Source of the DNA: Sipunculus nudus
Taxonomy: Eukaryota > Annelida > Sipuncula > Golfingiida > Sipunculidae
DNA length: 64,000 bases
Direction: 5' to 3'
Assembly (NCBI GenBank): GCA_026874595.1
Contig: CM049319.1
Location: forward strand, 58,846,917 to 58,910,916
Part shown: positions 11,229-49,215 of the stretch, piece by piece
Layout of the letters: each line of letters opens with the position of its first letter
How positions within the stretch are numbered: position 1 is the stretch's first letter
Position numbers and translations under genes: made by a program
Notes under the pieces: model-generated
The model's input: only the letters and a program-made list of their open reading frames with translations
The model's database searches: none
What the model was told of the DNA's origin: nothing

Positions 11229-12315
11229 GGTGTTTCAGCCAGCGGGAACATGTATAACATTTGTTTGGCCATGTCAGTCAGTTCATCTCCTGATTGGCAA
11301 ATTATCGGGTCACATGTGAACTGGTGCCTAACCAAGTGACCATGACCTCTGGCCTTTCCTCTTTGCCCAGCGTCCATTTGTGCGTCTGTTTCCACACATA
11401 AACCCACATATCTCGGGAACCGTTTGACCGATCAGGAAATTTTTTTTTACACAAATGTAGCCCTTGGATAGCTTTATAACATACACAAAAACTGTGGCGC
11501 CACCTGCACCCACTTTTGCACAGCGTCCATCTGGTTGTCTGCCTTGGGTTAAAATCACTCATATCCCTGCAGTGGTTTGACCAAATTACCTGTAATTCGG
11601 CATGCGTATACATCCTGGATAGCTTTCTTGGTTTTATGACAGGTGGCGCCACCTACATTCACGTTCACGCTGCAGACATTATTGCTTATATCTCTGGAAC
11701 CGTTTGACCAATCAGGAATAGCTTTATAACATTCACAAAAATGGTGGCGCCACCTGCAGCCATTTTTGCACAGCGTCTATCTGTTTGTCTGCTGTGGGAT
11801 AAAATCACTCATATCTCTGCAGTGGTTTGACTTTTCCACATGAAATTTTGCATGTGTATATGTCAAGGCCCAGATCGCGATCTGGACGGATCTTGGATCT
11901 GTCCAGCCCAAATTGCGATCGCAGTTCAGGCCGGCCCAAACTGCGATCGCAATCCAGGCAGGCCAGATCTTGGATCCGTCCAGCCTAGATTGCGATCGCA
12001 GTTTAGTCCGGCCCAGACTGAGATCCTTCTTTCTTGCTTCAGGATTGCAATCTGGTCTGGACAGATCTAAGATCAGTCCAGCCAAGATTGCGATCCTAAA
12101 CTTGACCAGCCCATATTGCGATCCATGCTTTTATGATCTCATGAGTGAAACATTGGTTGTTTTACCAACTCATTTGGTATTGCATTTACCATTTTCCCAT
12201 AATAAATACAATTATAAAACAGAAAGACAATTTTTCACTCCTTCATATCACAGGTGTGCAACATGGGATGTTTCACCAACTCATTTAGTATTGCATGGTT
12301 GTTGAAAAAAGGTAA

Positions 12316-12870
12316 CAAGGAACCCATGGGTTTTATATGTTCACAAAATATGATTTGGAAGAGGAGGTTGGCAAGTGCAGGTTTTGTGTGGTAATATAAG
12401 CTGCATTATGAGCTGATGGTGTTTAACTCAAGTTATGTAAGATTATGATAATATCCTTGGAGACAGGGAAGAGGTTTGATGTCATTTATATTATATACAG
12501 TTGGAAATGGTGTGCTGTTTTCACATAGGTTTTGACTTGGCCATATAACTTTATCTACATTGCAGTAGAATTATATGAAAGAAAAACTGTCCATTATCAG
12601 TCATGGTAATTCTGATTTTTACAAATTAGAACTTCTATTTAATAATTACTGGTTATTCCTATCCAAGAATAAAACTTAAATTATATAACTATTTATTATA
12701 AATTAAAAACAAATATTGTGTCACATATAATTTAAATTAAGAATAATACCAGCATCATATGAAAAGATCTTTTCATAATATAATCGAAATAAATGATTAT
12801 TAAAATAATATTATAGAATATATTCATGAATACATTCATGATTACATTTTGAAAGTATCGGCATTTGTAT
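12316..12870 (-). mobile_element. AGCTCA-family element fragment, reverse orientation
   Basis: It begins with AACAAGGAACCCATGGGTT, the inverse of the AGCTCA-family right end. It then matches, inverted, the last 470 bases of the element at 44492-46936 (for example GGAGACAGGGAAGAGG against CCTCTTCCCAGTCTCC). The left end of the element is missing. It lies inside the foldback element. Confidence 0.7.
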
Positions 12871-13280
12871 TTTTATGCATGAAATTATGGAGGACATATA
12901 TTTATATTCGCATTCAAATATATTTGCAAAGTATTCTTATCATGTCTGGTATTTATTCAGTTTTAGCAAAACAAAGTTCTTGAGAATCCAGAATTTACTA
13001 ATTTCACAAATTGATCATAAGTATGATCATAATGATCATAAGTACCTGGTTTTATTGCTTTTATTTATATTTAAACATAAAACTATTATAATCACTTTGG
13101 ACTACATTCACATCAATCTAAGCACATAGCAAAAGTCATATGACAATTATCAACATTACAGAAATCATAAAGAGAACTTGTCTAAGATCTGATTTTTTAT
13201 CATATTTAAATATTTTTATTTTAAAAATTGTAAAAAAAAATTAAAAGCAATCTTAGCTATGAAATCATTATAAGAATAAA

Positions 13281-14606
13281 CTAGATGTGTCGGAATGACA
13301 CGAATGCCCCCCCCTGGGGCAAATTAGAAACATTTGTAAAATTTTGAAATTTTTTTTAAGTTCAGGAGGTGTTGTATGGTCAAAAGTAGGTCAACAAGGG
13401 CAAAATGCAAACTCGATCTGTAACGGGTCATTATCAAGCAACACACCAAAAATCATGCCAGTATATGCAGGCATTGTGAAAAAAAGTCAATACATGTGCA
13501 TTTTCCATAAAACTTTCAGTCTTTCATGAAATTTTCTATGTTTAGGAGCCGTAAAACAATCAAAAGTAGGTCAACTGGGACGAAACGCAAACTCGATCTG
13601 TAACTGTCATTATCTGCCCACACATAAAAAATCAGGGTGGCATCTGCAGGCATTGAGGAAAAAAAGTCAGTACATATGCATTTGTTATGAAAATTTCTAT
13701 TTTTCATGAAACTTTCTATGTTCAGGAGCAGTCAAATGGTCAAAAGAAGGTCAACTGGGACAAAACGTGAACTCGATCTGTAACTGGTCATTATCTGCCC
13801 ACACACCAAAAATCAGGCCAATATCTGCAAGTATTGCGAAGAAAATTCTGTAAAAGTGTTTTTGTAAAGAAAATTTATATTTAACATGAAATTTTCTATG
13901 TTCAGGAGCCGTAAAACAATCAAAAGTAGGTCAACTGGGACTAAACGCGAACTCGATCTGTAACTGGTCAATATCTACCCACACACCAAAAATCACGCCA
14001 ATATCTGCAGGCATTGCGAAAAAAAATCTGTACATGTGTATTTGTCATGAAATTTCAACCGGGACGAAACGCGAACTCGATCTGTAACTGGTCTATATCT
14101 GCCCACAAACCAAAAATCAGGCCAATATCTGCAGGCATTGCGAAAAAAAGTCTGTACATGTGTATCTGTCATGAATATTTCTATTTTTCATGAAATTTTC
14201 TAAGTTAAGGAGGCGTAAAACGTTCAAAATGAGGTCAACCGGGACGAAACGCGAACTCGATCTGTAACTGGTCATTATCTGTGAACACACAAAAAATCAG
14301 GCCAATGTTTGCAGGCATTGCGAAAAAAAAACCGTACATGTGTATTTGTCATGAAATTTCTATTTTTCATGAAATTTTCTAAGTTTAGGAGCCGTAAAAT
14401 GGTCAAAAGTAGGTCAACCGGGACGAAACGCGAACTCGATCTGTAACTGGTCTATATCTGCCCACACACCAAAAATCAGGCCAATATCTGCAGGCATTGC
14501 GAAAAAAAATCCGTACAACTGTTTGATTTCGGAATGACGGAAGGACGGAATGACGGACATGGGTAAACTATATGCCCCGGCCACTTTGTGGCGGGGGCAT
14601 AAAAAT
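13281..14606 (-). mobile_element. HINE-like element, ATGCCCC family, reverse orientation
   Basis: Read on the - strand, it starts TTTTTATGCCCC with a GC-rich stem over CCACAAAGTGG. It has about seven core units of roughly 150-180 bp (key words GGTCAACCGGGACGAAACGC and CTGCAGGCATTGCG in + text). It ends GGGGCATTCG, then the hairpin GTGTCATTCCGACAC, then ATCTAG. The right-end motif GGGGCAT mirrors the left-end ATGCCCC. This is the subterminal inverted repeat plus terminal hairpin layout known for Helentron-derived elements. No coding region. Confidence 0.75.
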
Positions 14607-15290
14607 AACTCAAGCATAAGAACACCCTATAAATTGTACAAGGAGAAAACTATAGATGGGCAAGTTTAATTTTATTAACATAAACTGAGGAACCAGCAAT
14701 ACAGATTTTGATTATTTACATAGTCATGTGACAGCTGATACAGCCACAAGTCTTAATATTATCAGTGAAACATATTGACATATTAAATCAGTACTTGTCT
14801 GAGTAAAATTTTAAAATTTTTACATATATTATTTTTTTATTTTTAATTTTAAAATAACTATAAATTAACAAGCTGAAACGCATGGATCGCAATATGGGCT
14901 GGTCAGGTTTAGGATCGCAATCTTGACTAGACAGATCTTATATCTGTCCAGTCCAGATTGTGATCCTGAAGCAAGAAAGACAGGATCGCAGTCTGGGCCG
15001 GCATAAACTGCGATCGCAATCTAGGCTGGACGGATCTAAGATCTGGCCAGCCTGGATTGAGATCGCAGTTTGGGCCGGCCTGAACTGCGATCGCAATTTG
15101 GGCTCGACAGATCTAAGATCCGTCCAGATCACAATCTGGGCCTTGACATTTAAACCTTTTGGGGGATAGGTTCTCGTTCAGATAACAGGTGGCGCCACCT
15201 ACAATCATGTTTATTTGGCAGAGATCCATTCTGATATGTAACATGTTCTCAGTTCACCTCAACCCCGCCCACTCCACCTACCCAGCAACT

Positions 15291-17229: not shown

Positions 17230-17254
17230 AAATTGTTGAATATATTACAAAAAT

Positions 17255-19015
17255 TATCCAAGAGATAAGCTCATACTTGGTTTTTTTTTCAAATGGTTTG
17301 GGTTCGATGAATTTAGGCCAAGTTACAAGAATTTGAAGGTAAGCATACTAACTTACTTTAAAAAATGACAGGAGCTAACATCACAAAATTTTGTGCAAAT
17401 TTTTGTCACCTGACACATTGACACATTGACCTGGGTTTTTTTTACGGGCAAAAACCTCTTAATTTTAGCCCCTTTCAGTTTCTGCATTTAAAATGTTTCA
17501 TGATGAAACTCTCTTGATAAATGGTTTATTCTTTTACTAGAATTACCCTAAGGTAGGATTCTCTCAATCAATTGATTTTTGGAAGAGTCATGGAAAGCTG
17601 AAGTTGGTCTTGTGACAAAGAAAGCCTATATCAAACTCAGGGCTGCAATAGTTTTTTCTTCAAAACTGATGCTTCAAATTCTTAATCAATGCACCAAATA
17701 GATTTTAGGTGGCCTTTGTTCAAGTTTACTTAATTGATTTTTGGCTGAATTGATGGACATTTAGCATACTTTAGTTGACAAAGCTGTTAGATTTATTGTA
17801 ATCTTGTTTCAGATTCTGTATCAATGCACCAAAATGATTCTTATATGGCCTTTGTTCAAGTTTACTTTAATGATCATGGCTGAATTATTTAACAATGAAA
17901 GGACTGAGAGATATTTTGGATAACAAAGCTTGTAGATTTATTGTAGTAACAGACTTAGCTCTATTACTACAAGCAAGGCTGTACAGGCAACATAAATAAT
18001 TGGTGTCCATATCCAACTTTTGTGTAAGATAGATCCATGAACAAAATACATATGTATTTTGATTTTGCTTTCAATAGGCATCTGTTATTATTCTATACAT
18101 TTTGATAAAAAAATCTTGTGAATATGTCAGCATGAAAAAATCAGTCCTTCAGTTTTTGTAAACAGATTTGGTAACAGATCAGGATTTTGTCTGTATCTGT
18201 AAGCAGCTTGGCAGACTGCCAACTATTTCAGGCAACAGGCCAAATTTCAGTTTGTATCTATAGACTGCCAACTGTATCAGATTAGGCAATAGGTCAAGAG
18301 TTCAGTCAGTGCAACCTTCATGGTACAGTCAAGGGTTCACTCAGTGCATTAGCTACACCTTGCATCTAGCCTCCATTGATTTCGGAGGCAACTGCCTTTC
18401 TCAGCTGAGCTTAGTCAACTGAGTAGACCCAACTCAAGAGAAGTTTGATGTATCCGCCTGAATTTTTGGCATTTCCTTGCATTAATGATGGCTCTCTCAT
18501 ACACAAGACTGGTGTCGGCACCTACAATTATGTTTTGCACAGTGTATGTCCAGCTTATTTTTTCAGGAAGACTTTGATATATCAGCCTCAAATTGTGCAT
18601 ATCCGTACATCTCAGATAGCTTTGTAGTATACAACGCTTTTGGCGCAACCTACAATTGTTTTGGGTTTCATGCATCTGTTCATCTATATCAAGAGTGGTT
18701 TGAAGTATGTCGCTGAAATTGTGCCTATCAAAATATACCTTTCATGGCTTTCTCATACACAAAATGGGTGGTACCACATACAAATATTTTTATGTTTTGT
18801 ACATGCATCCATGCCAATATTTCAGCTGTGACGTGTGTGTACTTGGTGCTTGCACTCAAAATGTTTAGTACTTGCTTTGTACATGTACGCGTCACATATA
18901 TACTTGAAAAGTAATCAAGTACTTTTCCAATAATTGTCAAGCATGTTATCATGGAAGCATTATACTTTATGTATATCGCATTGCACAGGTTTGCATTCGG
19001 CTTGTAAGCCTTGTA
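17255..19015 (+). mobile_element. HINE-like element, AGCTTATGC family (older copy)
   Basis: It opens with AAGCTCATACTTGG and TGACAGGAGCTAACATCAC, close to the clearer copy at 46937-49215. It ends with CAGGTTTGCATTCGG, the hairpin GGCTTGTAAGCC and TTGTA. Core text with GGTGTCGGCACC (near 18511) is a degraded form of the shared GGTGGCGCCACC dyad. No coding region. Confidence 0.55.
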
Positions 19016-20589: not shown

Positions 20590-23500
20590 AGCTCAGCTGA
20601 CTGAAAGTCATCTGAGCTATAGCGATCACTCTTTGTCCGTCGTCCGTCTGTCCGTCTGTCCGTCTGTCCGTCCGTTAACCAGGCACAAATCGTAACCGCT
20701 GGACCTAGAACCTTGTAACTTGGGATTCTGAGAGGTCCATAAAAAATCTCCTTGGAAACCAGAAATTAGGTCTCTGTTACCCATATCCTTCGAGCTATGT
20801 GGCCCCAAAGTACCCCCCAGAAAAGTCAAAAATTTCATACAAAAACTTCAATATCTCATTAACTACTTGACTGATGGTCATGATTTTTGGCATACATATT
20901 GATCATGAGATGTTACATCACTTCCTGCAGACTGGTGGCGCCACCTGTATTTTTCGATTTTTTACGAATTTTTTTCTCTATTTTTGAGACCTTAAAAAAT
21001 GTGAACATCTGTTAACAAGGCACAAATCATAAAGACTGGACTTAGAATCTTAATTCTTGACACACTGAGAGGTCCATGAAAAATCTCCTTGGAAACCAGA
21101 AATTAGGTCTCTGTTACCCATATCCTTTGAGCTATCGGGCCCCAAAGTACCCCCCAGAATAGTAAAAAATTTCATACAAAAACTTTAATATCTCAATAAC
21201 TACATCACTGATGGTCTTCATTTTTGGCATACATATTGATCATGAGATGTTCGATTAGTTCCTGCAGACTGGTGGCGCCACCTGTACTGTTTGATTTTTT
21301 ACGATTTTTTCCTCTATTTTTGAGACCTTTGAGGATGCTGTCATCTGTTAACGTGGCACAAATCGTAACGACTGGACCTAGAATCTTCATTTTCGACACA
21401 CTGAGAGACCTATAAAAAGTCTCCATGGAAACCAGAAATTAGGTCTCTGTTACCCATATCCTTCGAGCTATGGGGCCCAAAATTACCCCCCAGAATAGTC
21501 AAAAATTTCATACAAAAACTTCAATATCTCATTAACTACATCACTGATGGTCATGATTTTTGACATACATATTGATCATGAGATGTTTCATCAGTTTGTG
21601 CAGACTATTTTTCAATGTTCACGAATTGTTTTCTCCATTTTTGAGACCTTTAAGGATGTAGTTATCTGTCAACAGGGTACAAATCATAAAGACTTGACTT
21701 AGAATCTTAGTTCTTGACACACTGAGAGGTCCATGAAAAATCTCCTTGGAAACCAGAAATTAGGTCTCTGTTACCCATATCCTTTGAGCTATCGGGCCCC
21801 AAAGTACCCCCCAGAATAGTAAAAAAATTCATACAAAAACTTCAATATCTCAATAACTACATCACTAATGGTCTTCATTTTTGGCATACATATTGATCAT
21901 GAGATGTTCGATCAGTTCCTGCAGACTGGTGGCGCCACCTGTACTGTTTGATTTTTTACGATTTTTTCCTCTATTTTTGAGACCTTTGAGAATGCTGTCA
22001 TCTGTTAGCGTGGCACAAATCGTAACGACTGGACCTAGAATCTTCATTTTCGACACACTGAGAGACCTATGAAAAGTCTCCATGGAAACCAGAAATTAGG
22101 TCTCTGTTACCCATATCCTTCGAGCTATGGGGCCCAAAATTACCCCCCAGAATAGTCAAAAATTTCATACAAAAACTTCAATATCTCATTAACTACATCA
22201 CTGATGGTCATGATTTTCGACATACATATTGATCATGAGATGTTTCATCAGTTTGTGCAGACTGGTGGCGCCACCTGTATTTTTCAATGTTCACGAATTG
22301 TTTTCTCCATTTTTGAGACCTTTAAGGATGTTGTTATCTGTCAACAGGGTACAAATGGTAACGACTGGACCTAGAATCTTCGTTCTTGACACACAGGGAG
22401 ACCCATGATAAGTCTCCATGGAAACCTGAAATTTGGTCTCTGTTACCCATATCCTTTGAGCTAAGTACAGCTCAGAATAATGGAAAATTTGATACAAAAG
22501 CTAAAGTATCTGAACAACTAATGCAGAGATAACCATAATTGTTTGCATGGATATTGATCATGGAGTGTTTCATAAGTTTCTGCAGACTGGTGGCACCACC
22601 TGTATTTGTTCGTTTTTTTTTACGAAATTTTTCTGTATTTTTGAGACCTTTAAAGATATGAACATCTGTTAACAGGGCACAAATCATAAAAACTGGACCA
22701 AGAATCTTCATTCTTGACACACAGGGAGACCCATGAAAAGTCTCAATGGAAACTTGAAATTAGGTCTCTGTTACCCATATTCTTTAAGCTATATGGGTCC
22801 AAAATACCCCCCCCCCCCATGAATAATGGAAAATTTGATACAAAAACTGCAGTATTTCAATTACTACAACACTGATGGTCATGATTTTCGGCATACATAT
22901 TGATCATGAGCTGTTCCATCAGTTTCTGCAGACTGGGTGTGCCACCTCTATTTTTTTTTTCAAATTTTTACGAATTTTTTTCTTTTTTTTTGAGACCTTT
23001 AAAGATGTGGTTATCTGTCAACAGGGTACAAATCGCAACAACTGGACCTAGAATCTTCATTCTTGTCATGCAAGGAGGCCCATGAAAGGTGCCTGTGGAA
23101 ACTTGAAATTAGGTCTCTGTTACCCATATCCTTCAAGCTATAGGACTCTGAAGTATCCCTCAGAATAATGGACAATTTGATACAAAAACTGAAGTATCTG
23201 AACAACTAATGCAGAGATCACCATGATTTTTTGCATGGATATTGACCATTAAGTGTTTTTATTAGTTTCTGCAGACTGGTGGAGCCACCTCTATTTTTGT
23301 ATCCGCCAAAACGAGTTCCTCCGCCGTGGCGGCGTTCGTTTCCAGAGAGCTCCTCGGAGACTAATGGACCAATTTTTCCCAAACTTACACCTATTATCGG
23401 GTCACATGTGAAATGGTGCCTAACCAATTTGCATTGACCTCTGACCTTTCCTCTCTATCCAGTGTCCATTTGTGGGTCTGTTTCCACTCATAAACCCTCA

Positions 23501-24624
23501 TATCTCGGGAACCGTTTGACCGATCAGGAAATAAAATTGATACAAATGTAGCCCTTTGATTGCTTTATAACATACACAAAAAATGGTGGCGCCACCAGTA
23601 ACCATGTTTGCACAGTGTCCATCTGTTCATCTGCCTTGGGTTAAATTCACTCATATCTCTGCAGTGAATTGACTAATTCACCTGAAATTCGTCATGTGTA
23701 TACATCCAGGATAGCTTTCTTGATTTTATGACAGGTGGCGCCACCTACGTTCACGTTCACGCTGATGACATCCAAGCTTATATCTCGGGAACCGTTTGAC
23801 CGATCAGGAAATAAAATTTATACAAATGTAGCCCTTTGATAGCTCTGTAACATACACAAAAAATGGTGGCGCCACCTGTAACAATGTTTGCACAGCGTCT
23901 GTCTGTTAGTCTGCCGTGCCCTAAAATTACTCATTTCCCTGTAGTGGTTCGACATAACTGCCTAAAATTTTGCAGGTTTATACATCGTGGACAGCTTTCT
24001 TGATTTTATGACAGGTGGTGCCACCTACATTCTAGTTAACGCTGGACACATCCAAGCTCATATCTCAGGAACCATTTGACCGATTGGGCCAAAATTGTGC
24101 ATGTGTTTAGATCTCACATAGGTCTTTATCATACACAAAACTGGAGGGGTTACCTGCAAAGATTTTTGCACAGTGTTTGTCTGTTTGTCTGCCATGGGCA
24201 AAAATCGCTCATATACATGTAGTGGTTTGACTTTTCTGCCTAAAATTTTGCAGGTGTATACAACTTGGACAGATTTCTGGATTTGTGGTAGGTGGCACAT
24301 CCTACATACACATTTAGGCTGCAGACATCCATGCTAATATGCAACATACCTCACTCTATTTCCCCTTGCCACTCAATCCATGCCTCACTATCCGATTTTG
24401 GCAGATACATGTAGTCACTTGTCGGTTACCCGTATTCTAGTTTTAAAAGTTTACACATTTTTCTCTATTTTTGAGATATATAAATACAGACTAAATCTTG
24501 GCCTGTTGGTTAATCTGTTTGATGCTTCAGTTGAATGGGTATATACTACCATTCTGGTGATAAAATTTCCATTTGCGAATCTCTTCCCAGTCAGCTGAGC
24601 GTCATGACCCATGGGTCACTTGTT
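20590..24624 (+). mobile_element. HINE-like element, AGCTCA family (copy 1)
   Basis: The left end AGCTCAGCTGACT is followed by its own imperfect inverse (AGTCATCTGAGCTATAG) and a GTCCGTCGTCCG tract. The right end has AGTCAGCTGAGCG, mirroring the left end, then the perfect palindrome TGACCCATGGGTCA (24605-24618) and CTTGTTT. Between them are about seven or eight core units of roughly 330 bp, most with GGTGGCGCCACC (20934, 21271, 21928, 22264). Units at 21205-21426 and 21865-22083 are almost identical, so a two-unit block of about 660 bp was duplicated recently. Nested inside is a TATCCGCC element. Confidence 0.8.
23299..24440 (+). mobile_element. HINE-like element, TATCCGCC family (copy R2), nested
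   Basis: The borders are set by comparison with the empty site in the second AGCTCA element (near 35695). The left motif GTATCCGCCAAAA (23299-23311) is mirrored by TTTTGGCAGATAC (24396-24408). It is followed by the hairpin GTAGTCACTTGTCGGTTAC and an end at CTAG (24440). Core units of about 145 bp carry GGTGGCGCCACC at 23585, 23734 and 23865. A CTAG end after a hairpin is a Helitron-type 3' end; the subterminal inverted repeats are the Helentron trait. Confidence 0.78.
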
Positions 24625-26781: not shown

Positions 26782-27323
26782 AGACTGGTACCCCGCTCTA
26801 TTATGGCACCGCTGCTCTCGGCCAATCAAAGAGACGGGCGTACAACGCCATCTTTTGTACTCCCGACAGACTGGTTCCAACTCCAGTATGTATTATATAT
26901 GATAAAAATAAGCATTTCGTTTGCTCAGGGAAGTTACAAAAAGTTGTCTGTACATTAAGTGTGACATTAATGATTAGATTAATAGATATTGATCATAAAA
27001 CACTGCTACGTACAGTAGAATATCAAAGATTCATTATATCGTATTATCTATAATCAATCATTCAATTTTTGTGCAACAACTCATAATTCAATATTTTAAA
27101 ACTACAAATAACCTGAGAAAGTTATTTTATAAGTAATCTTCACGGATAATCAACCATGAACGCTTGAACGTCCATGACAACCGGTATGAGCGTGCATACT
27201 GGAGTTGGAACCAGTCTATAGGTAGGTCAGGAGTTGCAACTGGGAGTACTCAAGATGTCGTTGTACGCCTGTCTCTATGCTTGGCTGAGGGCCATAATAG
27301 AGCAGGGTACCAGTCTAGAATGA
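26782..27323. mobile_element. Inverted-repeat element just upstream of GSTK
   Basis: Arms of about 108-128 bp (26782-26889 and 27195-27323) are inverted copies. The outer text is ACTGGTACCCCGCTCTATTA and the inner text TGGTTCCAACTCCAGTATG. An AT-rich 305-bp loop separates them. The inner arm edge lies about 110 bases from the GSTK start codon, so it may overlap the promoter. Confidence 0.75.
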
Positions 27324-27369
27324 GACAGGCTGCCTTGATCAGTCTAGAATGAGACAGGCTGCCTTGATC
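27312..27369 (+). repeat. 29-bp perfect tandem duplication
   Basis: Two identical 29-bp units, starting AGTCTAGAATGAGACAGGCT, lie end to end. They straddle the outer edge of the inverted-repeat element and end 62 bases before the GSTK ATG. Confidence 0.95.
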
Positions 27370-30900: not shown

Positions 30901-33900
30901 TTATATATGTTTTCAGTTTATATAAACAAATTTTTAGCTCCACCTGCACATTTTGTTCAAGAAAATAATAACATTTCAATAAAAATGTCCCCTATATATG
31001 TGCATTAAATTGTTTAGCAAAACATATTATTATTATAATTATTATTATATTATTTATATATCATGTTGTCAGTTGATCATATTAATTTTTTATGCCCCCC
31101 CTACAAAGTGGCAGGGGCATATAGTTTTACTTGTGTCCGTTATTCTGTCATTCCGTCCTTCCGTCATTCCGAAATCAAACAGTTGTACAGACTTTTTTTC
31201 ACAATGCCTGCAGATATTGGCCTGATTTTTGGTGTGTGGGCAGATAATGACGAGTTACAGTTGGAGTTGGAGTTTCCTCCCGGTTGACCTATTTTTGACT
31301 GTTTTACGGCTCCTAAACATAGAAAATTTCATGAAAAACAGAAATTTTTTGGAAAAATGCATATTTATGGACTTTTTTCACAATGCCTGCAGATACTGGC
31401 CTGATTTTTGGTGTGTTGCTTGATAATGACCGGTTACAGATCGAGTTTGCATTTTGCCCTCGTTGAACAACTTTTGACCATATGACAGCTCCTGAACTTA
31501 AAAAATTTACAAAATTTAACAAATATTTCTAATTTGCTCCAGGCAGGGGCATTCATGTCATTTTTACACATCTATTTTTTTAAATCCTATGATAAAAATT
31601 AAAAAAAAATCTTCCCACTTCACTGAAACAGATCTTATTTTTGCTTAATGTGTTGATATTTATATCTATTTGGAATGATAAAATTACTTTATATGTCTCT
31701 GTGATCATTATATCTTTAATTTTTTTCACAGGAAATGATGGTCCATTGATAAATCCAAGCAAAGGAAAATATGTCTTTAAAGATGTGATAAGACTTGGCA
31801 ACCATTTTAGAATTCCTTTTAAAATACCAGAGGTAAGGAAAGAAGTCATTGTATCCGCCAAAAAGAAGTTATTCTGATACTATATTTTTGACTGGGTTCC
31901 GCTGCCCCAACCATCGCCGCCATCGCCGTGGCATTTATTTCCGGAGAACTCCTCTGCGACTACTGGACTGATTTTTCTGAAACTTACACCAATTATTGGA
32001 TCACATTTGAACTGGTGCCTAACCAATTGATGTTGACCTCTGACCTTTCCTCTTTGCCCAGTGTCCATTTGTGCGTCTGTTTCCACACATAAACCCAAAT
32101 ATCTTGGGAACTGTTTGACCAATTAGGAAAAAAATTTACTACAAATGTAGCCCTTGGATAGCTTTATAACATACACAAAAATGGTGGTGCCACCTGCAAC
32201 CATGTTTGCACAGTTTCCATCTGTTTGTCTGCCTTGGGTTAAAATCACTCATATCTCTGCAGTGGTTTGACTTATTCACATTTGGCATGCATAAACATCC
32301 TGGAAAGCTTTCTTGATTTTATGACAGGTGGCGCCACCTACATTCACGTAGATGCTGCAGACATCCATGCTTATATCTCCGGACTGGTTTTATGTATCTT
32401 CCTGAAAATTTGCATGTATATAGATTTCACATAGCTCTTTATCATACGCAAAACTGGTGGCACCACCTGCAACCATTTTTGCACAGCATTCCTCTTTTTT
32501 TCTTCTGTGGGATAAAAATCACTCATATCTTGGCAGTGGTTTGACATATCTGCCTAAAATTTTGCACGTTTATACATCATGGACAGCTTTTTTGATTTTA
32601 TGACAGGTGGTGCCACCTACATTCTAGTTAATGCTGCAGACATTCAGGCTTATATCTCAGGACTGGTTAGACATACCCCCCTGAAATTTTGTTTGTATTT
32701 ATCTCACATAGCTCTTAATCATACACAAAATTGGTGGCGCCACTTGCCACCATTTTTGCTTATGTCTTTCTGTTAGTCTGCTGTGGGATAAAAATCACTT
32801 GTATACATTTAGTGTTTTGACTTTTCTGCCTAAAATTTTGCATATGTATACAACTTGGACAGCTTTCTGGATTTTGTGGTATGTGGTGCCACCTACATAC
32901 ACATTTCAGTGGCAGACATCCATGCTAATATGCAACACACCTCACCCCATTTCCCCTGGCCACTCAATATATGCCTCACTTCACCGTTCCACTCTGATTT
33001 TGGCGGATACATGTGGTCGCTTGTCGACTACCCGTATTCTATTTCCATAATTTTTCTGTCTGAACAATTATGCAGATTTAACAGTTGCTTTATTTTAAAG
33101 TTTCTGATGAGTAACTAATTAACTAATATCTCAGTTTAGACAGCCAGTTAATGCTAAGATTATGCCTTGGCACAAATGTATAAACACAACTAATTTGAAT
33201 TGGTGAGAAAAAGGTCTATAAGCCTAGTTGGTAACAGACTTTTGTTGGCCTTTTGTTCATGAGGGTTTCAAATTTGTTATATTCAAAAAAAGTAAAATTA
33301 TCATTAATTTTACACCCCATCTGCACATTGAATACAATTATGTTTTTTTTTTTTTAAATATAATCATGTTGTTGCCTTATAAGGATCTCTTTTATGTTTT
33401 CCTGGCCTGTATTGTCTGAAGTTGAAATGGAATTTTAACAATGCATGGGTCATTGAATCATGCTTCTTGTCCAGTATGTTCATCATTCTCTTTCAGATGG
33501 GTTCAAGTGCTTTTGTTGGCAAGAGCCTACCAGGGATGAGACTTCTGACAGCCATCAACACGTCACACCCTGAGCTGGTGGAAGACCTGTCCAGACAACT
33601 GTGGTTAAGTCTGTGGAGCAGAGTAAGCTAACCCACTAATAATTATAATCTGCATTCTAAGGAATGCAAGCCTCTGCCATGTGGGGGTCATTCACATATT
33701 TGTCCATATTCCCAGGTTCCTTTGTGCAGGAGTTCCCGCCAGCCGATGTTTGCTTTCACTTATTTCGCCCATATTCCAAGATTCATTCATGCATAGGTGA
33801 CTGTACATTTGAATATTCTTATAAGTCCTTCCTGGACCCAGTTCATAGGGTGGTTCCTCACCAAAATCTCATTGATTTTTCATTGGCCCATTCCAAAATT

Positions 33901-36900
33901 TCATGGGATTCCATTGATGATTGCATGAGTTTTGTTCTGAACAACACAAACACAAGAACTGGAATGAATGCATTCCCTCCTGGAAGAGGCAATAAAGTTA
34001 TCATAATTTTTATAACATAAATTGATGTTTGCAGATGCCGGAGATGCACAGTTGATCAGGGTATATTTGAAACTGCACAAACATCTAATTAAGCATACCC
34101 CATCAGCAAAAATTTAACCCTGTGGGGCCCAGCAATATCTAAAGATGAAGAAAGAAGGCCAAGAAATTTGGGTCTCAGAGACAGAGGTCTTTTAATTTTA
34201 AGGCTGAATCATTACTAGTTGATCTCAAGTCTGGATATATCATATGAATAGCCTGAGTTACAGGGTGTATAGCCTTGATATTAAAGATTCATGAAATTCA
34301 GTTATGTACTTGTGTGCAAAACTGGTTTTTAGCTCAGCTGACTGTAAAGTCATCTGAGCTATAGTGATCACTCTTTGTCCGTCGTCCGTCTGTCCGTCCG
34401 TCTGTCCGTTAACCTGGCACAAATCGTAACCGCTGGACCTAGAATCTTATAACTTTACATTCTGAGAAGTCCATGAAAAATCTCTTTGGAAACCAGAAAT
34501 TAGGTCTCTGTTACCCATATCCTTCGAGCTATGGGGCCTCAAAGTACCCCCCAGAATATTAAAAAATTTCATACAAAAACTTCAATATCTCATTAACTAC
34601 ATCACTGATGGTCATGATTTTTTGCATACATATTGATCATGAAAAGTTTCATCACTTCCTGCAGACTGGTGGCGCCACCTGTAATTTTCGATTTTTTACG
34701 AATTTTTTTCTCTATTTTTGAGACCTTTAAAAATGTGAACATCTGTTAACAGGGCACAAATCGTAAAGACTGGACCTAGAATCTTCATTCTTGACACACT
34801 GAGAGACCTATGAAAAGTCTCCATGGAAACTAGAAATTAGGTCTCTGTTACCCATATCCTTCAAGCTATGGGGCCCCAAAGTACCCCCCCAGAATAGTAA
34901 AAAATTTCATACAAAAACTTTAATATCTCCTTAACTGCATCACTGATGGCCATTATTTTTTGCATACATATTTATCATGAGATGTTTCATCAGTGTTTGC
35001 AGACTGGTGGCGCCACCTGTATTTTTCGATTTTTTACGAATTTTTTTCTCTTTTTTTGATACCTTTAAAAATGTGAACATCTGTTAACAGGGCACAAATC
35101 GTAAAGACTGGATCTAGACACACTGAGAGACCTGTAAAAAGTCTCCATGGAAACCAGGAATTAGGTCTCTGTTACCCATATCTTTCAAGCTATGGGGCCC
35201 CAAAGTACCCCCCCCCCCCCCCGGATAGTCAAAAATTTCATACAAAAACTTCAATATCTCATTAACTACATCACTGATGGTCATTATTTTTTGCATACAT
35301 ATTGATCATGAGAAGTTTCATCACTTCCTGCAGACTGGTGGCGCCACCTGTATTTTTCAATTTTTTTACGAATTGTTTTCTCTATTTTTGAGACCTTTAA
35401 GGATGCTGTCATCTGTTAACGTGGCACAAATTGTAACAACAGGACTTAGAATCTTCATTCTTGTCATGCAAGGAGGCCCATGAAAAGTGTCTGTGGAAAC
35501 CTGAAATTAGGTCTCTGTTACCCATATCCTTCAAGCTATAGGACTCCGAAGTATCCCTCAGAATAATGGAAAATTTAATACAAAAGCTGAAGTGAATGAA
35601 CAACTAATGCAGAGTTCACCATGATTCTTTGCATGGATATTGACCATTAAGTGTTTTTATTAGTTTCTTCAGACTGGTGGAACCACCTGTTTTTTTTTTA
35701 AAGTTTATGCATTTTATCTCTATTTTTGAGATATATAAATACAGTCACAATCTTGGCCTGTTGGTTATTCTGTTTGATGCTTCAAATGAATGTGTATATA
35801 CTACCATTCAGATGATAAAATTTCCTTTGGCAAATCTCTTCCCAGTCAGCTGAGCGTCATGACCCATGGGTCACTTGTTAAGACTGAAATGGAAACAAAA
35901 CTTTGGAACTGCACAAATCAAGAATTACAACTGCAGATTTACAATTATAACTACACATGAGTTGTCAACTACAGGTTAAAATTGACTAAAAAGTAACATT
36001 TATTTATCAGCAACTTCAAACTCTTAACACTCTGCTTAATTTTTGCACACTTTCACACTCTGTTAAAAAATTGTCATGGGAACTAATGTTAAATTGAGTC
36101 TTGGTAAAGACTAGGTTTAAAGTAAATTCTGTTTATCAGCACCTTTACACTTCTTAACATATACACTTGTACTTCTAAGCCCATACAAGAGACAAATTTA
36201 TTCTATAAATACTGGCCTATGAAGCAGTGATATAGTCCAGTCTGCACCATGGGAGTCCGAGTGCTTTATAATATGATTCTTTTTATTGGACTTGAGATTT
36301 ACTCAGTCTGATTTGCAAGTCTGAGTTCAGGACCCTCCAGTCCAAGTCCATAAAAAGGGGACTTGGGTCCGACTAAAGTCCAAGATCACTGCAGTGAAGC
36401 CCTGCCAAAATACTAAAAATATCCAAATAAAATATACAAGATTTAAAAACACATAAATATTGTGTGATCAAACATGCCTAAATTTAGTCCTATCTCTCTG
36501 ATTAATTTATCTTTATGTTTTCATGTGGTGTGTTACTTTTATTTTTTTCCTAATATTCAAGCAAATATTATTCCACAATCATTGTGTATCTTTAAACAGA
36601 ATAAATGAAAATGCTACTTCATTTGTCAAACATTTTGTACACCATTTTTCAGGGTGAAGATATTTCAGAGCCAGAGAAACTTTTAATTGTAAGTATTTAA
36701 TGATGTATGGAATAAAGAAAATTACTTAACATATCACTGAATTAAGCATATATAGTTAGTACCGCAGATCTCCTTTTTATGGTCGCATATCTATTTATAG
36801 CCTCACCCTGAGTTTACACCCCTTTAAGGAGATCCCATTGCACTTTGTTGTGCATACTGAATAGCTACTTAATCTTATATTTTATCAGTTAACAGAAGAG

Positions 36901-39061: not shown

Positions 39062-39105
<44 letters not shown>

Positions 39106-42100
39106 TTATATATATATATATAGCATTCTATGCTATTTCCCAACCATATTTCCAGTGATGTAGGACCCAAGTCTGGACTAAGTGGACTTGAGACCACTTT
39201 TTAAGGGACTCAGACCTGAGGATCCTAGACTTGAACTTGTACTTGGACTCCAAGGTTAGGACTCAAGAAATCAGACTAAGTCATCTTGAGTCCAGTAAAA
39301 CTATACTATTAGGCCAAAGAAAAGAAAAGTTATGATTCTATGGCATTTTTTTTTCCGAAATCATCTTGAGTCCAGTAAAAACTATACTATAAGGCCAAAG
39401 AAAAAAGTTAAGGTTCTCAGGCACTTTTTTTCAGAAATAAGTACGGGCAGGCAATATTTAATATTTTACCTTTTTTGCATGTTTCAATAAAAAGTCATAT
39501 GATCAGGGAAAAGCTTGAAAACAACAGAATTTTAAGGCTAAACAGGTAAAGCACTACATCATAAAGAAAATCTTATCCAAATTGTATTATTTTAACTTTT
39601 CAAAAGAAGAAAATCAAAATAAAAAAGTTTGATGCGTGGGTTTAAATTGAAGCAGGCGGTGCCTGAGAATCATACCTTTTATTTTTTTGGCCTAAGACTT
39701 TCTAAGAGAACACTACAAAAGGACAATACATACCAAGATTTTAACTCTGGAGCTAAATGTAATAAAACGTTTAAGTAAAAAGCATAACATAAACAAGAAT
39801 ACGGGTAGTCAACAAGGGACTAGTGTATTCGCTGAAATCTGAGTGGGATGGGTGAAGCATGCATTGAGTGGCAAGGGGAAATAGAGTGAGATGCGTTGCA
39901 TTTTAGCATGGATGTCTGCAAAGTTGACATAATTGTAGGTGGCGCCACCTGTTATTTGAAAGAGAAGGCTCTCCAAGATGTATAGATATGCAAAATTTCA
40001 GGAGGATAAGTGATTTTTACCCAAGGTAGATGTCTGCAGTGTAAATGTGAATGTAGGTGGTGCCACCTGACACAAAATCAAGAAAGCTATCCAAGATGTA
40101 TATACATGTGAAATTTCAGCTAGATAAGTCCATTCACTTCAGAGATATGAGTGATTTTAACCCAAGGCAGACAAACAGAAAGACACTGTGCAAAAATGGT
40201 TGCAGATTTCAGCCAGATTGGTCAAACAAGTCTGAAGATATGTGAATTAATGTGTAAAAACAGACACACGGATGGACTGCAGAGAGAAAAGGCCAGAGGT
40301 CTACGCAGAATAGTTAGGCACCAGTTCACATGTGACCCAATAATTGGGTCAAGTTTTGGAAAAACAGTCTAGTGGTGTCAGAGATGTATTCCAGAAATGA
40401 ACATGACGGCTGTGGAACCCGGTCAAAAACATAAAGTATCCGCAAAACTTTGTTTCGGCAGATACAAATACACATATATAATAATCTTAAATTTTCATTT
40501 TAAATCACTTTTAATTTAATAAATAGATTTGGACTCAAACCTCAAGGACTTGGATGAGAGTAGCCTTGCCCCGGATGATGTTGACTCGAATGCATCACTG
40601 CATATTTCCTTAACCAAATCAATATGTCAGTCTGGCCCCATTTTACATTTATTATCAATTGGTTATGCAATCCATACTCTGTCAGGTACCAGTCTGTTAG
40701 CAGATTTTCTCTGCAGTATTTACACAAGATTTAACCAGATTATATCTGTTCATACACATTATTTTCAAACTTCTGTAAAGTTTTTAGCTCAGTCAAAATT
40801 CAATCATGGTGAGCTATTATACGCTCTTTACACAGCGCTTTACCTATACGGCTACTACCTATATCGTAAGGCGCTGTTTGTTATGACCTCGTATCCCGAA
40901 TTGCTACACCAGAGGGGAGCACTGTATTTTTGTCCAATCAGATGAGACCTTGTGCTGAAAGACAAAGCCAAGCGAGGAATACACGGAGCCAATCATGTTT
41001 ATTTCGTTTTGAGTGACAGCTCATCGCCCCGCGTAACCGTCTGAACAGACCACAGGCTCAGAGAGAATTGCCCCTGACGTGGTTTGCTTAGGACCTTGGG
41101 CACATAGGATGCTTGGCCGGTGAGCTGTAATTCAAACGAAACGTAACAACAAAGGCTGCGTGCACACCTCGCTGGCTTTATTCAGTTCTGCAGACAACAG
41201 ATACATGGCTACGCTAACACAGAGTCATAATGTCATAATCCAATCGGCCGATGATGCGAGAATGCAGAGGGAGCAATTTAAATTCGACCGGAAACTCATC
41301 AAGTGGCGCTTGAAGCGCAGTAATGGGCGGAGCCAGGATGCCTGTCGATTTTTGTTTATTGGCATCTGATTGGCTGCTTGTAACATCATGCGCACGTTTA
41401 TTTCAGCGGACAATGAACCGCCATCTGGTGTCTAAATATATCATAAACGGTCGAAGCTGGCAGCGTGAAAATCAGTTGCTTCTTTAGAAGCGCAAGATTT
41501 CCGCTGCCTCGGGAGCGTAAGCTGTTAGTGATGGCTTCTTTGTTTATTGTCCTTCTGTTCGGCCATTCAGATGCTGTTTCCCCATCAGCAGGGCACAAAT
41601 CCTAGCTGTTTTACCTGTGAGGTTCTTAATTGTTATCTTGAAAGGTCCTGGTAAAATCTCCTTGCAAACTGAAAATAGGCTATAGTGACCAAAATAAGTA
41701 GTGTGCACATGACATGATGTTCATAAGTCTTTATAATAAGTGACAGATATTTTCCCCATTAAGACTAGATGGAATCTGCCTGATTTCTTGAGTCCTTACC
41801 TCCAAGTACAAGTACAAAGCTGAGTCCAGGACCCATAAGTCCAAGTCTGAGTCCCTTAAAAAAAGTTGACTTGAGTTTGGACTGAAGTCCAAGTTCGGAC
41901 ATGAGTCCTATCCTTAAATTAGTGCTTGTTATTTATGTCTTTTTATTTGTATTATGAAACTGTTTATATACAGAAGTCATTTCATTTCTACCATGTGGAG
42001 TCATGTACTGAACTGAAACTAGGAGTGTATATAAATCATAGATAGAAAAAATGGATGAAAAAAAAAAACTGAAGATACTTTTGATGCCTTTAATAACTTT

Positions 42101-43926: not shown

Positions 43927-43984
43927 AATTAGACTTAAAAAAAATATTGTATTGTTAACGTGCTATGGTACAGGCACTTGTGTG

Positions 43985-44090: not shown

Positions 44091-44491
44091 ATTTAGATAA
44101 ATAATTAGCTTCTTTTATTTTCAAGGTTATCTCTTCATGAAGATGTCGCGATTTCATGTGACTGCTTTAACTGTGTAATGACTTAAAACCATTTGTAAGC
44201 AGATGTAAGTTCATTGTTGGACCTCTGATGAAATTATATTTTCGGTTTCACACTTTAATTCATGATTAACCATGTATATGCACAGTATACGGCACAGAGT
44301 GAATATCAGGCCAATGTGTCTCTTGTCTCATTACCTCCTCAAAGCAGTGGTTATGTTTTTGCGGCGTTGGTTTGTTTGTTTGTTACTATTATTACTTAAA
44401 AAGTTATTAACGGTTTTCAGGATCGCTCGACGATGATACTGATTAAATGTTTGGGGTGATCCGGATGATCATCTGGATCCAGTGCTTTTTT

Positions 44492-46936
44492 AGCTCAGCT
44501 GACTATAAGTCATCTGAGCTATAGTCGTGGTCCATTGTCCGTCGTCCGTCCGGATGTTCGTCCGTAAGACTGGCACGTTTCGACACCCTAGGACCTACGA
44601 ATCTGAAATTCGCCATACAGTTAGATGTCCCCAAAATCTCCAACCATGCAGAAAATTGGGTCAATAGGACTTCGTTCCTTCGAGATATTAAGGAAAAACC
44701 TCATTTTTTTTTATTAGAAATCTATTTTCAAACTTCAGGACTGCCTAATATCAAAACCACTCATCTGGATTTCTTCATATTTACCATAAATATTCCTCTA
44801 TATAGTTCCTATGTACATGCCAGAAATTAAGTCAGTATTATTTAATTTAAAAAAGGTATATGCCTAAACATAATGGACTTTGTAAAAAAATCAGGAAAGA
44901 TATTTGGTCACTAAAGACCAAAAGTGTTAAAGGTAGAGACTTTTTTTCAGTAATACAACTTTAATTGATCAAAATTTAATTGTATACCAAAAATTAGATC
45001 AAAATCTGTTAAATTTTTTTTTAAATATTGGCAATAATAAAAAATTGGTACCTTAAATTATGCCCAAGTTTGACCATGGCACGTTTTTTTCCTGTAAGTA
45101 CTGTGGATTAAATTTTCACAGCATGTTTTTGTTAGCATTTTGTCTGTTAATACCAAAAATTTGAAACCAGTTGATCAAAAACTGAAGATTTTATTCAGCA
45201 CCATGTCACATCAAGTTTACATCAAGCTAGTGTTATGCAGTTTGCTAGAGCTCAGCTCCCCAGCTTCAGCTCTAATTCCTTAATTTAGCACACAATTAGA
45301 TGTCTCCAAAATCCCCTACCATGCCAAGAATTTGATCACTAGGACTTAATTCCTTCGAAATATTAATGAAAAACTTCATTTTTCAATTAAAAACCCAATG
45401 TTACACTGTAAGACTGCCTAATATCAAAACCACTGATCTGACTTTGATCATATATAATATACATATTTTTCTATACGTTCGCTATGCACATGCCAGAAAT
45501 GATGTCAGTATTGCGTAATTGTTTTAAGTTATAGGCCCAAACATAATGCATTTTTTAAAAAAATCAAGAAATATATTTACTCCTTTAACAAGAGGATTGC
45601 TGAAGCTAGAGATTTTTTTTTGTCAGGGATGTAACATTATTTAATCAAGATTCAATTGAATACTAAAAATTAGTTCTGAATTTTTCAAATTTTATAAGTT
45701 ATTAGTATAAATATAAAATTAGCACCTTAAATTTTGCCCAACTTTGACCATGGATCGTTTGTTTCCTGAGGGCACTGTTGATATAATTTTAATATCATGC
45801 ACTCATAAGGATTTCATCTTTGTAGTTTAGAAAGCTGAAAGAATTTGGCCAAATATTGTAGCTTTTATTAATGTTTTTATGAGACCATGTCAGACCCAGG
45901 CTTAATCCAGCCCCTCTTCAGTCACCTGTATGTTGACCTTGTTGACCTTTCATCAGATTATGCATGCTTGAGCGAAGCATACACTGGGGCAGCCAGGCAG
46001 CTAATGCCCAGCCACAGTTGATCCAGGTGTCCAACCCAACTTATCTACTAGTTGTTTTGAAAAAAAAAACATAACAATAAACAATAAATTAATAATTTTG
46101 TATTGGTTTTTTATAACAAATTAAAGAAAAATTAATATAAAAGGAATTTGTTAGTTGATAAGTAACAGAAAATTAACTTGCAGTCACTGATGATGTAAGA
46201 ATCTTGTATGGATGGACAGAATGTCAATGTCAATGTTATTCCAAATATCATCATGCAGTCACCTATGGTATTTTTCAGTTCAATTTTAATAATAAAAAAA
46301 TATATCATATTATTCATTACTAATCATTTGTGATCATATGAAGGAAATTAATGATAGACAAAGATGCAGTTGATAATATTAATCTAGATTCCTACTGTGT
46401 CTAGTGTGTAGATTGAATATGTACTGCATTAAAACATTTTATTGCATAAGAATGGGTATTCAGGTAAAAATGAAAGTATTTGAATACCAGTGCAGATACT
46501 TTCAAAATGTATTCATGAATGCATTCATGAATATATATTATAATATTATTTCAATAATCATTTCAGTTATATTTTATTTTAAAAAATCATATGATTTTCT
46601 TATTATTTTTTTTTTATAAAAATTATATTGGCACAATATTTGTTATTAAATTTTGATAAATAGTTAAACTCTTTTATTATATGTGCTGCTTATAAGTTAT
46701 ATGGCCGAGTCAAAATCTGAGTGACAATAGCACTCCATTTGTTAATAAAATAAATGAAATCAATCCTCTTCCCAGTCTCCAAAGATACTATCAAAATCAT
46801 ACATAAGCTAAACACCAACAACTCATAATAAAGCTTATATTTATTACCACACAAAACAAGCATGTGCCTTTTTTTCCAAATCATATTTTTTATCATGTAT
46901 AACAGCTGAGCGCCGTGACCCATGGGTCCCTTGTTT
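44492..46936 (+). mobile_element. HINE-like element, AGCTCA family (copy 3)
   Basis: The left end AGCTCAGCTGACT with its AGTCATCTGAGCTATAG inverse and the right end CAGCTGAGCG, TGACCCATGGGTCC, CTTGTTT are those of the family. The core is different from copies 1 and 2: two units of about 680 bp, anchored by TAGATGTCCCCAAAATC (44622) and TAGATGTCTCCAAAATC (45297), without GGTGGCGCCACC. The last 470 bases match, inverted, 12330-12870. Confidence 0.8.
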
Positions 46937-47685
46937 AGCGAACCTGTGAGCTTATGCGATGGTGCGGCGTCGTGCGTCGTGTGTCGTGCGTCGTCTGTAC
47001 GTTTACCATAGCTATCTCAAAAACAGCAGGAGCTAGCATCACCAATTTTTTTGCAAATAATCAGTCATCTGAAAAACTATCGGAAATTGTTTATTTTTTT
47101 CTAATTGCATTTTCTTAGATTTTATAGGGAAAAGCTTAAAAAGCTTTAAAAATCTTCTTCTCCGAAACTGTTCAGCCGAATTGTTCAATATGTCATAGAA
47201 ATGATCCCTGGAACAATCTCTCTCAAGTTTGTTCGTATGGTTCCAGTTCGGAGATTTTTGGCCGAGTTACAGGAGGTTGAACTTAGTCATCTTTCCAAAA
47301 AAGCACACTAAAATGAAAATCTCAGAAACGGCTAGAGCTGTAATCACCAAATTTTTATACCAATGTTTGTCACATATGTCATATCTGATTTTGAGGTATT
47401 GGTGGCGCCACGTACATTGATCTGTTTTTTACAAGCGAAAATGTAATTTTAAACTCTTCTAGCTTATACACTGATTTATGATGAAACTGTTAAGCTGATT
47501 AGTTTAAACTTTACAAGAATTGTTCTGTGGTAGGGTTCTTCCAGTTTTATAAGAATAGATTGGGTAAATACAGCTTTAAAAAAGCATTGTAGCCAATTGA
47601 AAAAGGCTTTCTGTGTTTGAAAACAGATTTGACAACATGCTGAGTTTTAGCAGCCAAGTCAAGAGGTCACTCAGTACAACCAGGT

Positions 47686-47797
47686 GGGGTCTAGACATCA
47701 CCATTGCAACTGACCTGGCTCTGGCGGGTGTCTAGACAATGTGTCTAGACGTCTAGACACAGCGTCTAGACGTCTAGACACAATCTCTAGACACAGA
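47686..47797. repeat. Cluster of GTCTAGAC palindromes
   Basis: About eight TCTAGA sites occur in roughly 110 bases, most as GTCTAGAC, arranged as head-to-head pairs such as GTCTAGACGTCTAGAC. Confidence 0.9.
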
Positions 47798-48181
47798 ATT
47801 CCCAGATTATTGGATCTATATCTTTCAGCTGTTTGAAAAATATTGGTTTGCAAATCTGTGAGCTTATGCAATGGTGTGGCGTCGTCGGTTGTCCGTCTTC
47901 CGTCGTCCGTCGCGCGTCATAGCTATCTCAAAAAGGGCAGGAGCTAGCATCACCTATTTTTTTGCAAAAGATTTGTCATCTAAAAAATTATCGGACTTTT
48001 AGCGAACCTGTGAGCTTATGCAATGTTGCTGCATCGTCAATTTTGCATCAGTGTGTTGTGCGTTATCTCTAGTTAACCATACCTATCTCAAAAATGACAG
48101 GAGCTAGCATCACCAAATTTTTTGCAAATAATCAGTCGCCAGTTATCATTTGTTTATTTTTTTCTAACTCCATTTTCTTAG

Positions 48182-49019
48182 ATTTTTTGCATAGCGTCTA
48201 TCTGTTCATCTGTCATGGGATAAAAACACTCATATCTCTGCATTGGTTGGACCTATCGACCTGAAATTTGCATGTGTATACATCTTGGACTGCTTTCTTG
48301 ATTTAATGACAGGTGGCGCCGCCTACATCACGTTTAAGCTGCAGACATCCAAGCTCATATCTCGGGAACCGTTTGACCAGTTGGGCCAAAATGTTGCATG
48401 TGTATAGATCTCCCATAGCTCTTTATCATACGCAAAACTGGTGGCACCACCTGCAACCATTTTTACACAGCGTCACTCTGTTCATCTGCCTTAGGATAAA
48501 ATCACTCATATCTCGGCAGTGGTTTGAATTATCTGCCTAAAATTTTGCATGTTTATACATCTTGGATAGCTTTCTCGATTTTGTGGCAGGTGACACTACC
48601 TATACATTTATGTATACATTCAGGCTTATATTTCAGGAATCGTTTGACATATCCCCCTGAAATTTTGCATGTGTATACATCTCACATAGCTCTTAATCAT
48701 ACACAAAAGTGGTGGCACCACCTGCCACCATTTTTGCATAGCGTCCGTATGTTTGTCTGTCGTGCGCTAAAATCACATATCTCAGTAGTGGTTTGACTTG
48801 TCTGCCTAAAATTATGCATGTTTATACATCTTGGACAGCTTTCTGGATTTTGTGGTAGGTGGCACAACTGACATACACATTTCGGCTGCAGACATCCAGG
48901 CTATTTTGCAACACACCTCACTCTATCTCCCCATGCCACTCAATCCATGCCTCCCTTCACCCGTCCCAGTCAGATTTTGGCGGATACAAGTAGTCGCTTG
49001 TTGACTACCTGTATTCTAG
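48182..49019 (+). mobile_element. HINE-like element, TATCCGCC family (copy R5), 5'-truncated
   Basis: About five core units with GGTGGCGCCGCC (48312), GGTGGCACCACC (48439, 48712) and weaker forms. TTTTGGCGGATAC is at 48975-48987, the hairpin GTAGTCGCTTGTTGACTAC at 48990-49008 and CTAG at 49016-49019. The left TATCCGCC motif is absent. Confidence 0.75.
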
Positions 49020-49215
49020 TTTCTGAGTTGTGTGCACCCATGCTAGAATTTCAGCAGTGATGTTTGTTTAATTGTTTCTTGTTCTAAGTGTTTAGTACTT
49101 GCATTGTTCATATACATGTTACACATGTTCTTGAAAAGTAATGGTCCAGCATTGAAGCATTATACCTGGTGTAATCTCATTGCAAAGGTTCGCATTAGGC
49201 CTGTAGGCCTTGTTT

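Follow-up and report, generated by a model that had tools for sequence, protein, structure and literature searches.

Locus and repeat families

The DNA analysed here, called the window throughout, is a 64,000-nt stretch (58846917-58910916) of contig CM049319.1 of Sipunculus nudus. It holds a glutathione S-transferase kappa 1 (GSTK1)-like gene and four families of repeats, A to D, which by their structure fit HINEs, i.e. non-autonomous Helentrons. A preliminary description had recognised the families by the motifs TATCCGCC (A), AGCTCA (B), ATGCCCC (C) and AGCTTATGC (D), and all four were found by self-comparison and alignment of copies. Judging from the sequences of their ends, these HINEs are very probably moved in trans by several Helentron lineages, each acting on HINEs with matching ends.

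Seven exon-like stretches between approximately 27400 and 38990 can be joined into a 211-aa peptide, and PDB chains of glutathione S-transferase kappa 1 match this peptide (best E 1.6e-56, residues 4-211). Because of this match, we regard the window as animal nuclear DNA. C2, A2, B2 and the F array, all described below, lie between the exons of this gene.

Layout and ends of the HINE families

The four families have a common plan. In brief, T's precede a left motif, the inverse of this motif lies near the right end, and a hairpin, the tip CT[A/T]G and TT follow. In B, C and A4 an inverse of the left motif also comes after it, and a stretch rich in GTCC, ATTCCGTC or CGTC comes next in B, C and D. 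The end sequences given below are from alignments of the window copies.

Family A has the left end GTATCCGCCAAAA and the right end TTTTGGCGGATACA, followed by the hairpin GTAGTC..GACTAC and CCGTATTCTAG. A1 (23299..24440, plus strand) is nested in B1 and is delimited by aligned ends and by the empty site in B2. A2 (31851..33041, plus strand), identified from its ends and array, lies in an intron of the GSTK1-like gene, and A4 (39794..40465, minus strand) was found from aligned ends. Two copies are incomplete. A3 (48184..49019, plus strand; array, self-comparison and alignment) is an A core with the right end and without the left part, located inside element D, and the remnant at 11301..11860 (plus strand; self-comparison and profile) consists of core only, without a left end. 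The F array (28550..29293, plus strand; TRF, palindrome scan and profile) is made up of diverged A-like units with the palindrome described below, and its ends were not recognised.

Family B has the left end AGCTCAGCTGACT and the right end CAGTCAGCTGAGC followed by TGACCCATGGGTCA and CTTG. B1 (20590..24622, plus strand) comprises the left end, a microsatellite, a 336-bp array and the right end, and is split by A1. B2 (34331..35877, plus strand) lies in an intron of the GSTK1-like gene; both copies were found by array, alignment and a blind scan. B3 (44492..46933, plus strand; self-comparison, alignment and blind scan) has B ends around a largely different core. B4 (12316..12871, minus strand; self-comparison and alignment) is truncated: it is a B-type right part, and its left part was not found. 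At 40786 a B-like left end (TTTTTAGCTCAG...GGTGAGCTAT) stands alone, with no B array.

Family C has the left end ATGCCCCC and the right end GGGGGCAT, followed by GTGTC..GACAC and ATCTAG. C1 (13281..14600; array, alignment and blind scan) lies on the minus strand, which corrects the preliminary description, and C2 (31092..31574, plus strand; self-comparison and alignment) lies in an intron of the GSTK1-like gene. The 3.3 kb that contain C1 and B4 lie between the arms of an inverted repeat of 280 bp (11854-12132, plus strand, and 14876-15155, minus strand; 92% identity). This repeat seems to interrupt an A-type remnant and is perhaps a fold-back element.

Element D (46937..49212, plus strand; alignment and scan) begins 3 nt past the end of B3. 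It has left ends at 46937, approximately 47843 and 48001, a D core, the A-like core A3 and a right end. The left end is AGCGAACCT and the right end AGGTTCGC followed by AGGCCTGTAGGCCT and TG. The motif first reported for D, AGCTTATGC, is not the subterminal repeat and sits inside the left end; the true end motif is AGCGAACCT, and the repeat AGCGAACCT/AGGTTCGC pairs position 46937 with 49212. A truncated D-type copy, D4 (17231..19013, plus strand; profile and end search), has a D core, an A-like (F) core and the D right end in one stretch.

All six left borders (A1, A2, B1, B2, B3 and C2) follow TT. The right border is followed by TT in 11 of 12 aligned copies, D4 being the exception with TA, and the tip reads CT[A/T]G in 10 of the 12; A2 and C2 have CTA without the G.

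A blind scan was made for TT, an 8-mer, its own inverse within 45 nt, its reverse complement 0.3-5 kb further, a hairpin and TT. The window gave seven matches, compared with 0-2 in 40 dinucleotide shuffles. Four of these are B1, B2, B3 and C1, two are poly-C and one is a chance match. This strict scan did not recover the A copies or C2, which like D were identified by alignment. When the nearby inverse is dropped, the pattern hardly discriminates (71 matches, D1 and D3 among them, versus 25-58 in shuffles).

Subterminal inverted repeats and a 3' palindrome, both HINE features, are present in all four families. Folded as single-stranded DNA, the right hairpins are weak in B (z 0.12 and -0.39) and moderate in A, C and D (-1.06 to -2.78). 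The left hairpins are strong in B1, B3 and C1 (z -3.8 to -5.0) and weaker in C2 (-1.63).

HINEs have no coding capacity of their own, and we found none in these families by Pfam searches with 9 of the 13 stop-to-stop open reading frames (ORFs) of 120 aa or more that the window contains. These nine ORFs gave one reverse transcriptase and one sub-threshold DSBA match, and no Rep or helicase gene; shorter frames were checked for two motifs only. The other four ORFs are frames of a 24-bp repeat array. An Rfam search of the whole window at gathering thresholds gave no match.

The families lack the canonical Helitron set of 5' TC, 3' CTRR and insertion between A and T. Their 5' ends are G or A after T's, and the target is T-T. 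The tip CTAG of some A and C copies fits CTRR; CTTG, as in B and D, does not. The alignments, the borders and a blind scan above shuffles confirm the HINE/Helentron-like layout of the preliminary description.

Tandem cores and the core module

Tandem Repeats Finder (TRF) identified arrays of 336-338 bp units in B1 (7.8 copies) and B2 (3.5), of 271-280 bp units in A1 (3.0), A2 (2.8), A3 (2.6) and F (2.7), and of approximately 180 bp units in C1 (3.8). C2 and D have few or short units.

The palindrome GGTGGCGCCACC occurs at 37 sites in the window with at most 2 mismatches (15 exact), versus 0-3 in 20 shuffles. By our own assignment, all 37 sites are in A, B, D or F cores or remnants. When the units are aligned at the palindrome, many of them contain ATATCTC and, approximately 30 nt further, AAATTTTGCAT. 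An A-unit profile from which the palindrome was left out matches the F array (best E 4e-10) and D4 (2e-9), and 1 of 2000 shuffles scored as high as the A profile on D. By these comparisons a module ending in GGTGGCGCCACC is clearly common to the cores of A and D.

The case for the same module in the B core is weaker. At consensus level, 1 of 2000 shuffles scored as high as the A profile on the B consensus and 0 of 2000 as high as the B profile on the A consensus. Single B units fit the A profile poorly (2.7-17.6 bits, best window-wide E 0.028), and the B profile gave no match on 3 of the 9 A and F units tried. A match of B and D cores by profile was likewise rejected, the B profile giving no match on the D core. 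The families had been described as unrelated in sequence; this does not hold for the cores, with one module in A, D and, more weakly, B, and with B3 combining B ends and a largely different core. A search for relatives in viral and prokaryote genome contigs gave one match; that contig meets the A profile only at E 0.089, elsewhere, and we take this as chance.

It is conceivable, if rather doubtful, that GGTGGCGCCACC is a putative protein-binding site, perhaps CTCF-like, kept by selection and not merely inherited. In all four groups compared (32 units), divergence is lower in the palindrome than in the remainder of the unit. Mean pairwise divergence is 0.059 versus 0.227 in B (10 units), 0.200 versus 0.391 in F (5), 0.154 versus 0.254 in A half 1 (10) and 0.095 versus 0.250 in A half 2 (7), and CpG transitions make up 14 of the 28 palindrome differences. 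However, common descent with tandem homogenisation could give the same pattern, 25 of 179 windows in A half 1 are less diverged, and family C lacks GGTGGCGCCACC. If we take the CTCF core to be YAGRKGGCRS, GGTGGCGCCACC would resemble two overlapping CTCF cores. Matches to this consensus are concentrated in the HINE intervals (31 of 36 matches in 17,492 of 64,000 bases), most of them being the palindrome itself.

A bolder version appears unlikely to us: Helentron lineages with unrelated ends would exchange one core module whose GGTGGCGCCACC acts as a double, back-to-back CTCF-like insulator site, full-length B-type Helentrons, with their arrays of it, would seed clusters of architectural sites in introns of this genome by rolling-circle transposition, and the site would be kept for the benefit of the element. 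Literature searches on CTCF and Helitrons, on CTCF motifs and mollusc transposable elements and on the 12-mer found no treatment of the motif in Helentrons in the parts of the articles consulted (including PMC6344568 and PMC2749850). For coleoid cephalopods, a preprint states an enrichment of CTCF motifs at the borders of domains (PMC12407938).

Insertion sites

Two empty sites were tested, both of A copies; the other families were judged from their flanking T's. A1 sits in a T-run of B1, and its flanks, once joined, resemble B2 across the site; the one doubtful point is how long the T-run is. Another A copy is present in the 5' region of the Helentron E9, described below, and absent from the related E10, with a border uncertain by approximately 3 nt. 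Neither site has a visible target-site duplication. Insertion in T-rich sequence is supported at both sites, and T-rich insertion at TT without target-site duplication is a HINE feature. Target-site duplications, or a genome without a Rep-helicase element, had been named beforehand as refuting outcomes; neither appeared.

The inverted motifs near both ends, and the fold-back-like inverted repeats (E) nearby, would also suit ordinary inverted-repeat DNA transposons, i.e. miniature inverted-repeat transposable elements (MITEs), or fold-back elements. The B and C right ends found beside Rep genes (see below) would then be there by chance. The asymmetric ends and the two empty sites without a visible duplication speak against this.

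Helentron genes and their right ends

The genome searched (1.43 Gb, 153 contigs) contains at least 143 matches to the Rep domain Helitron_like_N, from 150 of 195 candidates scored. It should be noted that some genes match in pieces, so this is not a gene count. We examined 31 Rep loci: H1-H10 over 19.8 kb each, a, b, c, e and h over 5.0 kb each, f, n, o, j, l, i, k and w over 1.6-1.8 kb and p1-p8 over 1.9 kb.

A B-type right end is found downstream of the gene at 11 of the 31 loci (H9, c, p1, a, l, o, i, w, p3, p5 and h), a C-type right end at two (e and f) and a decayed B-type right motif at one (H10). The right end of locus h is single and diverged (7 mismatches). A second B-type right end is nearby at o and l, and one on the other strand at i and h.

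The loci fall into sublineages with nearly identical upstream sequence: H9/c/p1, a/l and o/i/w/p3 (35-40 of 40 nt) and e/f (39 of 40). The right end of the a/l sublineage is of the type of B3 in the window. Similarity among the loci of one sublineage extends through the tip and the T's but not beyond, and a and l already differ within the tip. The right end of the o/i/w/p3 sublineage has a compensatory A-T to G-C change in its hairpin. In pair counts over 18 B-type right ends (13 distinct), this is one pair changed on both sides in four rows, probably by one event, and 88.5% of the cells are paired.

At a single locus, a B right end and a Rep gene may possibly be chance neighbours. For the sublineages this is excluded by the shared upstream sequence. 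The right end is also at a fixed place, 4.3-5.5 kb from the Rep domain, and a B right-end probe with up to 5 mismatches gave no match on either strand of H1-H8 (158 kb), compared with four B right ends in the 64 kb of the window. With these observations added to the asymmetric ends and the empty sites, we consider MITEs or fold-back elements with chance Rep neighbours extremely improbable.

H1-H8 make up another abundant group with Rep, helicase and endonuclease and have long tandem arrays on the 3' side of the gene; their own ends were not found. A de novo search for a hairpin followed by CT[A/T]GTT covered nine Rep stretches that lack A-D ends and seven of the H1-H8 loci. The matches were of four kinds, and none was convincing.

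Full-length B-type Helentrons

Upstream of H9 and H10, approximately 9-12 kb before the Rep domain, we found B left ends and then B-type arrays with the palindrome. The elements, E9 and E10, are colinear from the left end via the array and the 5' region to the gene. Their identity is 92.8% over 6.0 kb in the gene, versus 66-73% in four pieces of the 5' region. There are two left ends in E9, and one good and one decayed left end in E10. Neither element has a B right end between the array and the gene. E9 comprises the B left end, array, gene and right end, and E10 the left end, array and gene.

The frames of E9 and E10 (2342 and 2420 aa) contain DUF6570, Helitron_like_N, PIF1 and endonuclease domains by Pfam. 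The endonuclease scores 20.5 bits in H9, below the Pfam cut-off of 24.5, and 32.7 in H10, above 27.4. Two frames of the H1-H8 group (H2 and H7) have the same domain set plus OTU. Among these four loci, the Helentron combination of Rep, PIF1-type helicase and fused C-terminal endonuclease is present in H10, H2 and H7, and H9 has it with the sub-cut-off endonuclease.

The left end and first unit of B1 are 96.5% identical to those of E10 over 398 nt, compared with 93.0% to B2 over 412 nt and 83.7% to E9. Since a gene-bearing element holds the B left end, array and right end, B HINEs look like Helentrons minus the gene, with both ends and the array kept.

Beside H10, at 25725-27350 of E10 (L029, G000:C13), a C-ended HINE contains a nested element, which has a left end of the AGCCC...GGGCTAT kind. 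A palindrome in the C core of this copy was rejected, the palindromes being placed, by eye, in the nested element.

Probable movers of the families

We suggest that the HINEs, each with a left end, a microsatellite (B, C and D), a usually tandem core and a hairpin-bearing right end, depend for their movement on full-length Helentrons with matching ends, whose Rep/PIF1-helicase/endonuclease proteins would act in trans and whose Rep would recognise these ends. Both this action in trans and rolling-circle copying are inferred, from the family to which the proteins belong. Family B would be an internal-deletion derivative of a B-type Helentron, and family C has its right end in common with a second lineage. 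The movers of A and D are most likely further lineages, rare or extinct. The core module found under different ends was most probably passed between families by nesting and recombination.

The preliminary description had proposed a common mover for all families. This is not what we found: B and C right ends are on different Helentron lineages, which argues for separate movers, B is split into sublineages, and A and D ends are at none of the 31 loci. The Rep-helicase element with the same ends that it called for was found for B (both ends in E9; E9 and E10 as autonomous partners, with the right end at the 11 loci) and, for the right end, C.

Alternatively, one Helentron enzyme could read the shape (inverse motif, hairpin and CT[A/T]G tip) and not the sequence, and move all four families. 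The shape, tip and T-rich targets common to all four suit this, as does the failure to find an A or D partner among the 31 loci. However, B-type and C-type ends are on distinct gene-bearing lineages, each with its own end sequence, and HINEs have the end sequence of their partner in the published account as seen in part (PMC4067079). We consider a single shape-reading enzyme quite improbable; the common tip and shape fit a common mechanism, not a common enzyme.

Several observations weigh against matching Helentron lineages as movers. A and D ends are absent from all 31 Rep loci examined, out of at least 143 matches. No end of A-D was found at 17 of the 31 loci (H1-H8, b, n, j, k, p2, p4, p6, p7 and p8) in the stretches read, some of them 1.6 kb. 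E10 has a decayed right end of its own. B1 and H9, compared over their last 60 bp, agree well only in the final 33 nt, and family C is linked to its candidate partners, e and f, by the right end.

Other features of the window

A 1.3-kb inverted repeat, 87% identical, is located at 52653-53957 and 55386-56675, with an extra 211-bp pair at 52427-52635 and 56807-57017. The 24-bp array at 10244-11036 has 33 copies of its unit with 97% matches and is open in several frames. At 4890-5885 on the minus strand are two adjoining open frames, the first encoding a reverse-transcriptase fragment (RVT_1, E 8e-9) and the second without a Pfam match.

Comparison with known elements and implications

The kind of element is already known. 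Helentrons and HINEs are defined by common subterminal inverted repeats, stem-loops and Rep/helicase/endonuclease proteins in the sections consulted of PMC4067079. The DINE-1/HINE elements and Helentrons described there have the subterminal repeats, the 3' palindrome, TT insertion and a Rep/helicase/endonuclease partner with the same ends, as found here. They differ in coming from other organisms, and repeats are described in some of those HINEs; we did not find a long tandem array described in the autonomous partner in these sections, which does not establish its absence.

The closest likeness is to Cg_HINE of Crassostrea gigas (PMC7492417), and it rests on the published description as excerpted, not on sequence comparison. 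Several families, some of them unrelated, are described there, with a subterminal inverted repeat, its nearby inverse, a microsatellite, a tandem array, a right subterminal repeat and a palindrome, T-rich insertion without target-site duplication, and partly common ends on different cores. Pearl-type and related oyster elements (excerpts of PMC7492417 and PMC11136912) are also described as having short, satellite-like arrays flanked by conserved sequence, in some cases with GTCY-type microsatellites, again a likeness by description. In the excerpts on Cg_HINE no autonomous element could be related to the families, whereas here B and C ends are on gene-bearing elements and the B array is inside two of them. 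The partner is shown for B, partly for C, and was not found for A and D.

In contrast to the oyster HINEs as excerpted (PMC7492417), both ends link one family here to gene-bearing elements and the right end links a second, and the match of ends and enzymes becomes testable. The presence of one core module with different ends points to separate evolution of ends and cores. The satellite-like array inside two gene-bearing elements points to a direct route by which such arrays may be carried through the genome.

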